Source: Pseudanabaena sp. PCC 6802
GTDB taxonomy: Bacteria; Cyanobacteriota; Cyanobacteriia; Pseudanabaenales; Pseudanabaenaceae
Direction of reading: 5' to 3'
NCBI RefSeq assembly: GCF_000332175.1
Contig: NZ_KB235914.1
Location: 937,966-1,001,965 of the forward strand
DNA: 64,000 nt
Shown: positions 4,753 to 61,384 of the stretch, piece after piece
Numbering within the stretch: the stretch's first letter is position 1
How the letters are laid out: each line of letters starts with the position of its first letter
Translations under genes and position numbers: made by a program
The notes under the pieces: generated by a model
Seen by the model: the letters and a program-made list of their open reading frames with translations, nothing else
What the model was told of the DNA's origin: nothing
Database searches by the model: none

Positions 4753-5643
4753 GTGAGAACTGACACCCTGTTCTATCAGTTGCTGAAAACCTTTCAATCG
4801 CTCCTGTTTGAGCTAACCGAGCAGCCAATTCCCAGTGTAGACGATTATGAGTTTGTTTCTGTCGAAGTAAAAGAAAAAGCGTTTCGATTTGATGGCGTTT
4901 TCTTACCCAAAACTGGCGATAAACCGATCGTCTTTACCGAGGTGCAGTCCCAGCGCAAAAACAATTTCTACAGCGCGTTCATGGCGGAGATTTGCATGTA
5001 CCTCAGCCAGTACGAGCCAGAACAAAATTGGCAAGCGGTGGCCATCTTTGCCCGTCGCAGCTACGACCCTGGTGAAGCCGAGCATTTTCGCGAACTATTT
5101 GCCAGTAATCGGATTCGGCGGGTTTACCTGGATGATTGGCAGGAGCGCGAAACTGATTCCTGGGCAATTAAGATCGTGCAGTTAATCGTGACACCATCGG
5201 CGACAACTCCTGAATTTGTCGAGAACCTCAAGGCAGAGGTGGAGCAGAGATGTTTGCCAGAGCTAAAGGCGACTGTAGTAGAATTTATGGAGACTGTCCT
5301 AGTATATAAGTTCCCTCAGTTAAGCCGGGAGGAGATTCAAGCGATGTTTACATTAGACGACCTGCGGCAGACTCGGGTCTATCAGGATGCCAAGCAAGAG
5401 GGTATGCAGCAAGGTATGCAGCAAGGCATGCAGCAAGGCATGCAGCAAGGTATGCAGCAAGGCAGACAAAATGAGGCGCGATCGCTTTTATTACGCCAAC
5501 TATCAAAAAAGCTTGGCATGCTAAGCGATCGCCACCAAACCCAAATTAATAATCTTACTCTCGCACAAATGGAATCTCTCAGTGAAGCGTTGTTAGATTT
5601 CAATGATATTACCGACCTCGATCGCTGGTTGAATGAGAGCTAG
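4753..5643 (+). CDS. Rpn family (PD-(D/E)XK) nuclease/transposase-like protein
   Basis: 296 residues starting with GTG, 12 bp after the preceding gene. The N-terminal half shows the Rpn/DUF2887 pattern common in cyanobacteria: a start like RTDTLFYQLLKTF, an Asp in FRFDGVF and the Glu-x-Gln of VFTEVQSQ. This resembles the PD-(D/E)XK nuclease core. The middle carries IQAMFTLDDLRQTRVYQDA, also typical. Next comes a run of five Gly-Met-Gln-Gln units (residues about 217-236) and a helical C-terminus. Rpn proteins in enterobacteria promote RecA-independent recombination; whether this one cuts DNA is unknown. Confidence 0.85.
   Translation: MRTDTLFYQLLKTFQSLLFELTEQPIPSVDDYEFVSVEVKEKAFRFDGVFLPKTGDKPIVFTEVQSQRKNNFYSAFMAEICMYLSQYEPEQNWQAVAIFARRSYDPGEAEHFRELFASNRIRRVYLDDWQERETDSWAIKIVQLIVTPSATTPEFVENLKAEVEQRCLPELKATVVEFMETVLVYKFPQLSREEIQAMFTLDDLRQTRVYQDAKQEGMQQGMQQGMQQGMQQGMQQGRQNEARSLLLRQLSKKLGMLSDRHQTQINNLTLAQMESLSEALLDFNDITDLDRWLNES
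5401..5460 (+). repeat. Five tandem 12-bp units inside the Rpn-like gene
   Basis: Five consecutive 12-mers of the form GGYATGCAGCAA encode Gly-Met-Gln-Gln five times. The units differ only at the third base of the Gly codon. Because 12 is a multiple of three, slippage would change the length of the helical linker without breaking the frame. Confidence 0.95.
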
Positions 5644-49281: not shown

Positions 49282-49308
49282 AAACTTCAGGCAGTTTGTA
49301 ACGCGATA
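49282..49308 (+). repeat. Left 27-bp direct repeat (copy of the bciB 3' end)
   Basis: 27 bases identical except one to 52924-52950, the last codons of bciB. Read on the minus strand it still spells RYKLPEV and a stop (TGA). It marks the left boundary of the accessory segment. Confidence 0.8.
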
Positions 49309-49330
49309 TAACGGCTCAAATCAGCGGCGG

Positions 49331-49388
49331 CAGATAACCTTGAAGCACCAGCGTCTTTCGTCCGTTCGCTGCCACGCAGTGTTAGCTG
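49331..49388 (-). other. attC-like site after the VapBC-type cassette
   Basis: On the minus strand it begins CAGCTAACACTGCGTGGCAG and ends with GTTATCTG. Outer arms CAG-TAAC/GTTA-CTG and inner arms CAGCG/CGCTG pair with unpaired bases between, as in integron attC sites. It begins five bases after the broken toxin stop. The core GTTATCT departs from the GTTRRRY consensus, so confidence is moderate. Confidence 0.5.
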
Positions 49389-49393
49389 GCGGT

Positions 49394-49683
49394 TCAAGGG
49401 AATAACTCAAAGTAATTGCAGTGACTTGGACGTATAATCGAAAAATCTCGGCGATCGAGCGTATAAACACGAGTAATATCAAGCCTTTCAGCTATAGCAA
49501 CGATCGCCGCATCGGTAAAATCAAGCTGATTATCAGAATACTGCTCCAAGATCTGATGCACTCGTACCAAATCTTCTGTGGTCACAGACTCAACCTGAAC
49601 CGCATCAGGTGTGATATTGGATACAAAACATCGCCTTGGTCAGTTAGCGCAAACAAAAAAGTGGTGTCGAGGAGTGCTGTCAT
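49394..49683 (-). pseudogene. VapC-type PIN toxin gene with internal deletion
   Basis: ATG at 49683 overlaps the antitoxin stop (ATGA). The first codons read MTALLDTTFLFALTDQGD, the PIN start with its catalytic Asp. The frame is then lost, and the C-terminal part resumes in another frame: SVTTEDLVRVHQILEQYSDN, then DFTDAAIVAIAERL and TLDRRDFSIIRPSHCNYFEL. About 50 central residues of the normal protein are missing. The remaining 63-codon frame from 49585 contains the second acidic site but not the first, so no active toxin is expected. Confidence 0.75.
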
Positions 49684-49955
49684 GCCGTTTCACTCGGCTT
49701 GAGACTCCAGCCATAAATCGGATCGATTTCGTTACGTAGAATCTCCTCATCTCGTTCTGAAACATCAGGTTGTCCAGAGTTACCCAAACCTGCAATTGCA
49801 ACTAGAAAGTTGGAAGCACTATTACTATAATCTCTTCGCAAAATTGACTTGTAACGAAGATAATCAAGAAAACTAGCAAGTTCAAGCAAAGCTTCATCAG
49901 GGAGGGTACTGACTACCTCAATTAGCTTTTGTCGTTCTACAATAATTCCGTCCAT
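49680..49955 (-). CDS. Antitoxin of a VapBC-type pair
   Basis: 91 residues starting MDGIIVERQKLIEVVSTLPD. The segment PDEALLELASFLDYLRYK is typical of DUF2281-like antitoxins of cyanobacterial PIN toxins. The tail ERDEEILRNEIDPIYGWSLK also fits such antitoxins. It is coupled to the broken PIN gene by ATGA. Intact as far as can be seen, so it may persist without its toxin. Confidence 0.7.
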   Translation of the reverse strand: MDGIIVERQKLIEVVSTLPDEALLELASFLDYLRYKSILRRDYSNSASNFLVAIAGLGNSGQPDVSERDEEILRNEIDPIYGWSLKPSETA

Positions 49956-50076
49956 CGCTAAACCTTAAGGAAAGGGATTGTCCCTATTTTACTCCCTCAC
50001 TGAAGGACATGGTCGATCCGACCATAGTTACCCAACAGACCAGTTCCAAGCACTGTCTCCGCTCAAAAAATGAGCC

Positions 50077-50164
50077 AGCTAACGTCCCCGTTCACCCGCC
50101 GCTAGTAATCTTTCGGATTCAGCGACCAACTTGATACGGTCGGCGTGCAACGGGATTGTTAGCA
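50077..50164 (-). other. attC-like site after the restriction-modification cassette
   Basis: On the minus strand it reads TGCTAACAATCCCGTTGCAC at the left and GTGAACGGGGACGTTAGCT at the right. The arms CTAAC/GTTAG, CCCGTT/AACGGG and CGCCG/CGGCG pair with small mismatched spacers around a loop of about 45 bases. This matches the layout of integron attC sites (xCTAACAAx-CGTT-x...GTTAG). It starts five bases after the methyltransferase stop, as expected for a gene cassette. Confidence 0.65.
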
Positions 50165-50168
50165 GTTG

Positions 50169-51329
50169 TTACACACAGACTGTTCGCGCTAAGGAACTCG
50201 CTATATGGTGGCTTAGTTCTACGGGTACAGCATTGCCAATCTGCCTCATTGCTTCTGTCCATGAACCCCAAATTTTATAGTCATCTGGGAAAGTCTGAAT
50301 TCGTTTAGCCTCAAAGGTCGTGTAGTAGCGAACTTGACCATCTGGATATCGAATCATATTTTCTCCTCCAGGAACTCCATGATCTCCTGCTTTCAGTGCT
50401 TTAGAAGGCATGTCAATATAACTGCCAGTATGTCCAAGATATGATTTTGCACCCTCTCTAAGAACATGCTCACTGTCAAAACTACCTTCAAAATCAGGTT
50501 CTGGGAGATCCCCAATTTGATCTCTCACTGTTTTCCAAGGCTCCAAAGATGGTCTAAATAAAGTAGGCTGTTGAATCAGTCGATGAACTCTTTGCTGATT
50601 TCTTGTATCTAGGTGTTCAATTGCTGAAGGCTTGATCTTATGCCGTTCCCAATAATCATAGCTAACAAATTGCGACCATAGCAATGAATCCAAAGAGTGC
50701 GTTTCTTTTGGAAAAGCCCATTCTATATTTAAGTCTTCTCTTATACCGACGATGAAAACACGTTCACGGCGTTGTGGAATACCATAATTTGCTGCGTCTA
50801 GTAGCCGAAAAATTACATTATATTTAATGGAATCGAATTTCCCAGATGTATGGATTTTCTCAAGCCTTCTTAGATGATCTTCCCAGTTTTCTGAAGTTTT
50901 GGGCTGAACATCAGGATAAGTTAATCTTAGAATAATGTACTCAAAGTAACTATTAAATGATTTTCGTAAGAGTCCTTTGACATTTTCAAGAATGAAAATT
51001 TTTGGCGTATAAGTGCTGATGGCCTTGCAAGCATAAGGGAACATATCTCGCTGATCCATATTTCCTTTATGTTTTCCCCCCATTGAAAATGGTTGACAAG
51101 GAGGCCCTCCTGAAACTATGTCAATATGACCAAACTGCTCAAACTGGAATGAGCGAATATCTACATTATGAACAAGCTTGTTGCTGTAGTTATTTATCAG
51201 TGTCTGGCAGGCATCCTTATTGCATTCGATTAAAGCTTTATGCTTAACTCCAGAGAGTTCTAGCCCTTTTGCTAGTCCACCCGCACCAGCAAATAGCTCT
51301 AAGCAAGATATTTCAGGAATTTTCTTCAT
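50169..51329 (-). CDS. DNA (cytosine-5) methyltransferase of a type II system
   Basis: 386 residues with all main m5C methyltransferase motifs. Motif I is CLELFAGAGGLAKGLELSG and motif IV is VSGGPPCQPFSMGG with catalytic Cys78. Motif VI is FILENVKGLL, motif VIII YGIPQRRERVFIVG and motif X RQIGNAVPVELSHHIASSL. The target-recognition region lies around 225-330. It overlaps the upstream endonuclease gene by 17 bp. By its partner the site is predicted to be CCGCGG. The stretch is AT-rich and lacks HIP1 octamers, unlike its neighbours, which suggests transfer. Confidence 0.95.
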   Translation of the reverse strand: MKKIPEISCLELFAGAGGLAKGLELSGVKHKALIECNKDACQTLINNYSNKLVHNVDIRSFQFEQFGHIDIVSGGPPCQPFSMGGKHKGNMDQRDMFPYACKAISTYTPKIFILENVKGLLRKSFNSYFEYIILRLTYPDVQPKTSENWEDHLRRLEKIHTSGKFDSIKYNVIFRLLDAANYGIPQRRERVFIVGIREDLNIEWAFPKETHSLDSLLWSQFVSYDYWERHKIKPSAIEHLDTRNQQRVHRLIQQPTLFRPSLEPWKTVRDQIGDLPEPDFEGSFDSEHVLREGAKSYLGHTGSYIDMPSKALKAGDHGVPGGENMIRYPDGQVRYYTTFEAKRIQTFPDDYKIWGSWTEAMRQIGNAVPVELSHHIASSLARTVCV

Positions 51330-51957
51330 TTAAATTTCTTAAAAACTCTTCAATACTTTGGACAAGAATTTCTTTGTTTGCAGGTACTCCCTGACACTTT
51401 TCTGCCCAAGCACGTCCTGGATGACAGACATCCCAATCTGACTTTGCTTGCTCGTACCTACCCTTTCCAGGATCATGATTACCAAAACCATCAATCAAAG
51501 TATTCCATATTGGTTTGTACTTTCGGATTAGGGCTGCTTCGACAGTGCCTATCAAATCGCTTTCTTTCCCCTCAAGAATCATAAAACGGCAGAAAAAATC
51601 TGAGATATTCAAACCGTCCCCAATGTCGATGCTGCGGCTATGCTCTTTGATGCGATTATATAGCTCATAAACTTTAGCGTCTACAGAGGGTAATAGCCTA
51701 GATTGTCGCCATCCTTTTGGAACAGCCTTTCCAACATAAATTGGCATACGAAATTCAGTTCTATTTACCAAATGGAACTTTGAATAAATTCCAGATTTGG
51801 CAATGCAGTAGAGAGCATATACGCCTGTACCATGAAAACGCTCTGGAGTGGGAATTGAATGTACAGGTGTGCCATTAAAAAAACGTATTGTGTCTTTTAT
51901 AACCTCATCAAGATCGGGAGAGACATAAACATGGTCAGAACGATGAAAAACATTCAT
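51313..51957 (-). CDS. Eco29kI-like GIY-YIG restriction endonuclease
   Basis: 214 residues. The GIY-YIG core is seen in GTGVYALYCIAKSGIYSKF and RMPIYVGKAVPKGWRQSRL. The catalytic Glu is in VEAALIRKYKPIWNTLIDGF, and GNHDPGKGRYEQAKSDWDV then CHPGRAWAEKC complete the Eco29kI pattern. Eco29kI-type enzymes cut CCGCGG. It is the first gene of a two-gene operon with the methyltransferase; a promoter is recognisable upstream. Confidence 0.9.
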   Translation of the reverse strand: MNVFHRSDHVYVSPDLDEVIKDTIRFFNGTPVHSIPTPERFHGTGVYALYCIAKSGIYSKFHLVNRTEFRMPIYVGKAVPKGWRQSRLLPSVDAKVYELYNRIKEHSRSIDIGDGLNISDFFCRFMILEGKESDLIGTVEAALIRKYKPIWNTLIDGFGNHDPGKGRYEQAKSDWDVCHPGRAWAEKCQGVPANKEILVQSIEEFLRNLNEENS

Positions 51958-51996
51958 GTTGGCTGAGGCTTGGAGCGATCACCATAAGGACGCTCT

Positions 51997-52025
51997 ATTA
52001 TACTTGATTTCCGTGATGCTGATAA
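51997..52025 (-). promoter_or_regulatory. Promoter of the restriction-modification operon
   Basis: On the minus strand TTATCA (52025-52020) and a perfect TATAAT (52002-51997) are separated by 17 bases. The start of transcription would fall near 51990, about 33 bases before the endonuclease ATG. In an integron reading it would take the place of the cassette promoter Pc. Confidence 0.65.
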
Positions 52026-52085
52026 CTGATGGATCAAAGCCGCTCAAGCACTGAGCCAACGGGGTTTCCTAGACTGCTAACTATA

Positions 52086-52311
52086 TTTTAGACTGATTTT
52101 TTCTACCTAAACACCTATTTAAGACGATTAGCCAGACTTTTTCTGCCTAACTACCCTGGATAGATGGTTAGCCAGACCTTTTCTACCTAACTACCCCGTA
52201 AAGGTGATTAGCCAGAACATTTCAGCCTAATCACCCATTTGGGTGTGTTAGACAGATTTTTTCTGGGTAACATCCCGTATAGGTGATCTAGATAGATAAT
52301 TTCAGCCTAAC
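52086..52311 (+). repeat. 40-bp tandem palindromic array before the integrase gene
   Basis: Five complete 40-bp units start at 52086, 52126, 52166, 52206 and 52246. A sixth (52286) is cut at base 26 by the integrase ATG. Each unit contains an inverted repeat of the form TTAGnCAGA-n5-TCTGnCTAA, and a second small palindrome (clearest as CACCCATTTGGGTG) bridges neighbouring units. Units differ by point changes but the spacing is exact. GCCTAAC recurs (RYYYAAC, the integron core on one strand). Confidence 0.92.
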
Positions 52312-52900
52312 ATGACGACTACTGTTGAGCAACGCCCCAGAAAATTGTTGGATCGGGTTCGCGATGTTGTTCGCGCTAAGCACTACTCCTACCGAACCGA
52401 AGAAACCTACGTGCAATGGATTCGACGTTACATTTTGTTTCATAACAAACGTCATCCTTGTGAGATGGGTTGTGAGGAGGTCAATGCATTTTTAACCCAC
52501 CTTGCAGTTGAAGAACACGTTGCGGCTTCTACGCAGAACCAAGCTTTATGCGCAATTTTATTTTTGTATCGTGAAGTTTTACAGCAGGAAATCGGACTGG
52601 AATTAAATGCCATACGTGCAAAGCGATCGCGCTATTTACCAACAGTGTTAACAACTGAGGAGGTTAGAGCAGTAATCTGTAATTTGTCTGGTGTATACCA
52701 ACTGGTAGTCAAGTTGCTCTATGGCTGTGGTTTAAGGCTAAATGAAGCACTATAGTTTCGCCACGCATTTGCTGCAAAATGGCTACGATATCCGTACCGT
52801 CCAGGAATTGTTGGGGCACAAAGATGTCAAAACGACGACGATCTACACGCATGTCCTCAATCGTGGGGAGAGAGGCGTACGCAGCCCACTAGATGTATAG
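52312..52900 (+). pseudogene. IntI-like tyrosine recombinase gene with central deletion
   Basis: The first 147 codons encode the N-terminal core-binding part of an integron-type integrase: [40 protein letters not shown] and [19 protein letters not shown], ending at the box I arginine ([13 protein letters not shown]). A stop follows at once. In another frame the C-terminus resumes with [40 protein letters not shown] and SPLDV, including the nucleophile Tyr. Roughly 100-130 residues between are deleted, so the enzyme is dead. The IntI-specific insert would lie in the missing part, so the IntI label rests on the N- and C-terminal motifs. Confidence 0.85.
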
Positions 52901-52921
52901 ATATCCGGATGTGGGTATAGA

Positions 52922-60544: not shown

Positions 60545-61384
60545 ATGCACCAGGCTACACTCAGGCAAAAGCTATTGACAACTAAATGCTGTCCGGGCTG
60601 CTACTTAGAAGGGATTAATCTGGTTTATGCCAGTTTGAGGCATGCCGATCTAGAAGGTGTTAATCTCAGCGGTGCTAATTTAAGTAATATCGATCTGCGC
60701 GAAGCGGCGATTAACGATGCAGAGATGATTTATACCACCCTGGTCGGTGCTTACTTGATTGGTGCCAATCTCAGCGGGACTGACCTGAGCGGCTCGATGC
60801 TGGTGGGAGCAAACCTGCGCTTAGCCAATTTTGTCAAAAGCGATCTGAAAGGGGCAGATTTGCGTGAAGTAATTCTGAGGAATGCCAACTTGAGTCATGC
60901 TAACTTGACTGGTTGTAATTTAAGCAATTCCGATCTGATTCATGCCAACTTAGAGGGGGCCGATCTCAGACAAGCCAACCTGACTAATGCTGACTTACTC
61001 TATGCCGATTTACACGGTGCCAACCTCAGCGGTGCCAACCTCAGCGGTGCTAACCTCAGCGGTGCTAACCTCAGCGGTGCTAACCTGACAGAAGCAATTT
61101 TGCCTAAAGCCAGGTTGAGCAATGCGAACTTGAGCGATGCCTGCTTAGTAGAAGCAATTTGCGTGAAGGCAAATTTAATCGGTACCAACTTGAGCGGAGC
61201 GGATCTCAAAGGAGCTATTTTAACCAAAGCCGAAATTGCAGGCTCAGATTGGACTGGCGTTAATCTTGAAGATGCGATTATGCCTGGCAACAGCGATCGC
61301 AGCGAGGTTAAACATGACGATGCGGTGGACGACACTCTGACGCTTGTGACTGATGCTTCCCTAGTACGCGATCGCAGCACTTAA
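60545..61384 (+). CDS. Pentapeptide repeat protein
   Basis: 279 residues, almost entirely A(N/D)LSG-type pentapeptide repeats from about residue 18 to 250. They predict a right-handed quadrilateral beta-helix. There is no signal peptide or membrane helix. Cys-Cys-Pro-Gly-Cys near the N-terminus (KCCPGCYLEG) is unusual. Such proteins can mimic DNA or act as scaffolds; function not assigned. Confidence 0.9.
   Translation: MHQATLRQKLLTTKCCPGCYLEGINLVYASLRHADLEGVNLSGANLSNIDLREAAINDAEMIYTTLVGAYLIGANLSGTDLSGSMLVGANLRLANFVKSDLKGADLREVILRNANLSHANLTGCNLSNSDLIHANLEGADLRQANLTNADLLYADLHGANLSGANLSGANLSGANLSGANLTEAILPKARLSNANLSDACLVEAICVKANLIGTNLSGADLKGAILTKAEIAGSDWTGVNLEDAIMPGNSDRSEVKHDDAVDDTLTLVTDASLVRDRST
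61016..61090 (+). repeat. 15-bp tandem units in the pentapeptide gene
   Basis: Four near-identical units GGTGCYAACCTCAGC and a fifth diverged one encode consecutive Gly-Ala-Asn-Leu-Ser. The near identity at DNA level points to recent slippage expansion by whole pentapeptides. Confidence 0.9.

Follow-up and report, generated by a model that had tools for sequence, protein, structure and literature searches.

What is the repeat array that runs up to the start of an integrase gene in Pseudanabaena sp. PCC 6802, and does it belong to the integrase, to a recombination site or to neither? We analyzed the 64,000-nt stretch of this genome that contains the array (hereafter, the window). A first-pass annotation had described positions 52086-52311 as a series of 40-bp palindromic units. 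That periodicity is real: direct repeats lie in register at spacings of 40, 40, 40 and 40 within those limits, TRF returned a period of 40, and self-identity is 0.66 at lag 40 and 0.62 at lag 80. The 40-bp spacing is exact, but the true repeat unit is 20 bp, with successive copies alternately inverted, and the array consists of 12 copies of a single ~17-bp box (consensus GGGnnnTTAKnCnGAAA).

52082 to 52318, no strand assigned: array of alternately inverted ~17-bp boxes, n = 12 (held-out box model score 149.9, shuffle maximum 14.3)
52089, 52109, 52129, 52149, 52169, 52189, 52209, 52229, 52249, 52269, 52289, 52309: box anchors

The held-out box model was trained without the window or its near relatives, and its shuffle maximum comes from 50 shuffles. 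The anchors advance in exact 20-bp steps from 52089 to 52309 with zero base drift. The two hairpins noted earlier, one within each unit and a second joining neighboring units, are the head-to-head and tail-to-tail pairings of one box; the second is the identical box viewed from the opposite side. A search of Rfam with the array gave no match. Short tandem repeats with periods of 12 and 15 also occur in the window, at 5393-5462 and 61015-61086, and are unrelated to the array.

The array had been called fused to the integrase start. An integron integrase start does adjoin it, but the gene is broken.

52312 to 52755, plus strand: integron integrase remnant, N-terminal 147 residues followed by a stop (TIGR02249 positions 1-136)
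52742 to 52902, plus strand: C-terminal integrase remnant of ~50 residues, in a different frame (TIGR02249 positions 266-313)

The two halves match TIGR02249 at 1.2e-51 and 3.9e-26, respectively. The middle part of the protein, including the HxxR motif, has been deleted, and there is a frameshift; this copy of the integrase is thus not intact. The adjacent integrase is dead, and the window holds a dead integron.

At its other end, the array does not start at 52086, as had been reported. It begins at an attI core that the first-pass annotation had not noticed.

52078 to 52091, minus strand: attI core (crossover) site; the same core is found at the first box in almost all cyanobacterial intI loci and also in attI1

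On the plus strand, the core reads TAACTATATTTTAG (52078-52091) and directly precedes the first array box. On the minus strand, it reads CTAAAATATA-GTTA, its R box being GTTAGCA and its L box CTAAAAT; the latter doubles as box 1 of the array. Most of the loci checked have a GTTRRRY or near-GTTRRRY R box; in the window, two of the last letters are off this consensus. The attI1 sequence from a plasmid record carries TAACTTTGTTTTAG at the corresponding core position. We placed the crossover, G^TT, between 52081 and 52080 of the minus strand. The cassette junction falls at the core both in the window and in other loci, and the complement (R'') of the eight junction letters recurs upstream in 29 of 62 loci. 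The expected number, from 200 trials in which prefixes were exchanged between loci, was 4.5, and the 200 shuffles gave no more than 11. Because the complement of the cassette start recurs this often, we regard the core as the true crossover point.

On the far side of the core lies at least one gene cassette.

50082 to 52080, minus strand: gene cassette 1 (restriction-modification pair), from the attI crossover to the attC1 crossover; its start GTTAGCAG complements R'' CTGCTAAC at the far end
51313 to 51957, minus strand: Eco29kI-like restriction endonuclease gene (PF09517, E 1.6e-68)
50169 to 51329, minus strand: C5 cytosine DNA methyltransferase gene (PF00145)
50077 to 50165, minus strand: attC of cassette 1, R'' CTGCTAAC ... 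R' GTTAGCT; the bottom strand folds better than shuffles (z -2.9)
49300 to 50082, minus strand: probable cassette 2; R'' CCAGCTAAC at 49389-49381 complements the cassette start GTTAGCTGG

The genes of cassette 1 are transcribed away from intI. Two small ORFs in cassette 2 (49680-49955 and 49394-49585) resemble, by eye, a putative antitoxin and a PIN-toxin-like protein. The attC2 of the window, at the far end of this cassette, folds no better than shuffles, so the end of cassette 2 is uncertain. The same Eco29kI-type restriction-modification cassette is present at attI, with the same junction, on another cyanobacterial contig (L032, 1-2650).

The locus therefore has an intI gene beside the core (broken here, intact in relatives), inverted L and R boxes of the GTTRRRY type within it, and cassettes joined at G^TT with attC (the 29 of 62 loci above; attC1 folds). 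These are the marks of an integron attI site, which IntI would bind and recombine. The earlier description of the array as "attI-like" was borne out to the extent that it adjoins a canonical attI core, beyond which a cassette lies. Core and first box are separated by exactly 10 bp in 25 of 38 loci, whereas the distance from the last box to the start of the IntI match varies from -4 to 183 bp. Because the first of these is fixed while the second varies, the register of the array is set by the attI core and not by the intI ATG. The last unit had been said to end exactly at the integrase ATG; the last box does overlap the ATG in the window, but the variable distance means that this is not general.

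The array is not peculiar to the window. Using the intact IntI homologue of the same genome (L014) as query, we obtained 80 loci, for the most part cyanobacterial or from Chloroflexi. Loose repeat autocorrelation of the upstream regions lacked the power to detect diverged arrays, and we turned to a palindrome-period test that needs no sequence profile and to a box profile. By the palindrome-period test, many cyanobacterial loci separate from their own shuffles and from the interiors of their own intI genes, with z up to 10. The box profile, in which orientation alternates and which was learnt iteratively, detects arrays beginning at the core. Control windows elsewhere in the loci (~80 loci of 3-13 kb) had a median profile score of 7.5 and a 99th percentile of 16.2, the only clear exception being a second intI start. 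One IntI clade contains 61 cyanobacterial rows (SH-aLRT 95). Six of these lie on contigs too short to be scored; among the remaining 55 loci, the array is present in 51, short in 2 and absent from 2. In related Chloroflexi, IntI rows have 0-8 boxes.

Cyanobacterial attI sites carry 6-18 boxes, and the steps between boxes are 20-21 bp in ~80% of cases. Both the box word and this step persist in cyanobacterial loci whose IntI has as little as 63-81% identity to the query, whereas the remainder of the unit varies. With the held-out profile, seven Pseudanabaena-type loci scored 80-113 (149.9 for the window; shuffles at most 20) and three other box types of the window's genome scored 14-41; for one box type of that genome (C5:3287034) the score was no better than in shuffles. 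In an even draw of 292 cyanobacterial genomes, intI was found in 16. Among 18 scorable intI places, 12 have an array (2 of them in the window's genome), 1 has a three-box remnant and 5 have none, 3 of the latter being in one family. One marine-type cyanobacterial IntI lineage (L117, L119, L120) has no array; not all cyanobacterial integrons therefore need one. Its layout is nevertheless conserved across cyanobacterial integrons. The first-pass annotation had proposed looking for arrays beside intact homologous integrases, where their absence would count against a link, and there they are present. An Alteromonas plasmid (L109:1150-1486) carries, ahead of a broken intI, four copies of a palindrome like TTACTAAGAMTTCTYATTAA at intervals of ~85-115 bp, which may be a repeated site of a different form.

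The docking site of the best-studied integron holds four integrase-binding sites. Two points are still under debate: why attI far outdoes other sites as a cassette target, and which function the additional boxes have in attI1. Binding of IntI1 to L, R, DR1 and DR2 of attI1 is established (PMC12901181). When the cyanobacterial profile was run over attI1, R, L, DR2 and DR1 ranked 7th, 4th, 3rd and 2nd of 388 positions. The held-out profile ranked them 6th, 5th, 2nd and 3rd, and none of 200,000 random four-position draws matched these ranks, in a comparison that rests on four sites. DR2 lies one box step from L and has the orientation of box 2, which is the first reversed copy in the array. The core geometry, TAAC-N6-TTAG, is also shared, and the array has what appear by sequence to be extra IntI boxes beside the core, with a box word common to DR1, DR2, L and R. 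In attI1, however, there are exactly two accessory boxes, in direct orientation, whereas the window has 12 alternately inverted boxes and cyanobacterial sites have 6-18 in total, at 20-21 bp steps. The resemblance is strong evidence at the sequence level, and from it we infer that the array represents accessory integrase-binding sites, that is, the DR1/DR2 arrangement expanded three- to four-fold.

Other known integron sites are less similar. The attIA site of Vibrio and other gammaproteobacterial attI sites share the TAAC-N6-TTAG core, but no array was found in five gammaproteobacterial attI regions (scores 8-19.5), nor in class 1. DRs have been reported absent from most attI sites, attIA included (PMC8191803). 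The array does not form an attC site either, which would be an imperfect R''-L''-L'-R' hairpin ending a cassette; its boxes are evenly spaced, its units are gene-free and their arms do not covary.

We therefore think it probable that, in an extended attI site, the array forms the accessory arm, with boxes that would act as IntI half-sites and favor insertion at the core. Each box would be the half-site for one IntI monomer, and neighboring inverted boxes could take IntI pairs, perhaps cooperatively. A step of 20-21 bp is about two helical turns, which would put all boxes on nearly one face of the DNA. An array loaded in this way may keep integrase at attI and give the DNA a shape by which attI x attC insertion would be favored at the single core that has crossover spacing. 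This is the role proposed for DR1 and DR2 of attI1, scaled from four boxes to 6-18; the DRs have been proposed to act as topological filters (PMC8946536, PMC8191803). Because its own integrase is dead, the array in the window would be a relic of such a site.

It had also been suggested that the array binds a regulator of the integrase, and the boxes could be operators for a repressor, or for IntI itself, that control the intI and cassette promoters. The array does occupy the expected position of PintI and Pc, and in the window it extends into the start codon. Autoregulation by IntI would also be compatible with the accessory-arm explanation. The idea fits less well with a register fixed to the attI core and not to intI, and the matching box word in attI1 is an IntI site. 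LexA-like motifs (AGTACNNNTGTTCT, 0-2 mismatches, at most 130 bp before intI) occur separately near the gene start in 10 of 76 loci vs. 3.7% in shuffles, a weak excess; since they are separate, SOS-type control need not use the array. On balance we regard an operator array as unlikely. The loci with LexA-like motifs include L095, L060, L064, L067, L053 and L054.

Many arrays have no intact integrase beside them. We located arrays in the 292 genomes with a sequence-only site model, which misses more diverged box types. It matched in 55 genomes, often at several places each, compared with the 16 that have an intact-looking intI. Thirty such loci were examined: 8 have intI or a fragment of it downstream, and 22 do not. 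Several further genomes have many arrays with no intI detected, and many array-bearing genomes hold intI fragments. The window's genome has about 13 array places and two intact intI genes; its intI-less arrays are at C5:2385430, 2616432, 2000297, 1449103 and 2057597, at C2:37873 and at C1:636917. Arrays of the same unit at unrelated loci had been named as a point against a link with the integrase; such arrays do occur at loci without intI, but most of them carry an attI core. At one place (L021:1501-1680, C5:2616290), an insert of ~136 bp lies between the attI core and the array, with TTAGA at both junctions.

That intI-less arrays are common means either that they are long-lasting relics or that the array has another use. 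They are probably integron relics, decay being the plain reading. There is also a small chance that the arrays themselves spread, by box recombination or in attI-bearing cassettes, and are used in trans by a few intact integrases, giving many attI sites per cell. The delta-attI cassettes of class 1 and 2 integrons likewise place parts of attI away from an integrase (PMC12901181), but the solo arrays of cyanobacteria keep the core and many boxes and are scattered over the chromosome.

Tandem repeats can also arise by slippage, and an array that formed in this way beside attI could now be inert or decayed. Unit number differs by whole units among four related copies in the window's genome, some arrays (L064) have near-identical units, and many have lost intI, all of which would suit such an origin. 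Lack of function is nonetheless improbable, given that the box word and the 20-21 bp step persist among cyanobacterial IntI proteins with as little as 63-81% identity to the query, whereas the remainder of the unit varies. Among the four related arrays, box columns had 6.6% differences vs. 23.8%; we set this apparent column constraint aside because the alignment pairs non-orthologous units.

The first-pass annotation had listed among its options a multi-copy recombination platform, in which several boxes act as cassette crossover points, and had proposed looking for cassette junctions at the box cores. Junctions do fall at the attI core, but no cassette was seen within an intact array. Only the core has two inverted boxes 10 bp apart; boxes in the array are 20-21 bp apart, so array pairs lack crossover spacing. 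Two places could point the other way. At L134:2905-3300 (C5:4398404), in the window's genome, two attI arrays of different box type are fused head to tail without intI nearby, with a single TAAC belonging both to the last box of the first and to the core of the second; L002 stops precisely at its final CTAAC. The fusion can be explained by 4 bp of shared letters, however, and the end of L002 by the start of an adjacent transposase gene (IS1380 type, named by eye), which leaves multiple crossover points very unlikely. The least probable idea, a single-strand hairpin that acts when the strand is exposed, as attC does, draws on fold scores of the window array, which on each strand are far better than those of shuffles (z -6.1 and -7.6), but any palindromic array is expected to fold well, the arms of a unit match no better than arms shuffled within the array (253 dyads, z -1.1), the second dyad reaches only z +1.9, carried by GGG/CCC columns, and since arms of a unit do not covary beyond the consensus, we give this folded structure hardly any weight.

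Integrons in Cyanobacteria are already known (PMC8618304, PMC2426708). The loci described here resemble the chromosomal integrons surveyed in that phylum in having intI, attI and cassettes with attC; the published mentions differ in giving no description of an arrayed attI architecture. Our literature searches agree with the first impression that no integron with such an array had been described: none was found in the open-licence literature, although an account in a subscription journal could be missed. Accessory boxes have been regarded as something that class 1 mobile integrons specially acquired (PMC8191803, PMC8946536). Their presence, 6-18 to a site, in a large lineage of cyanobacteria suggests instead that accessory boxes are an old and variable part of attI. 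The arrays form a natural series of lengths that could be used to measure the role of accessory boxes, and the site model lets attI sites and dead integrons be found where cyanobacterial intI has decayed (55 of 292 genomes vs. 16).
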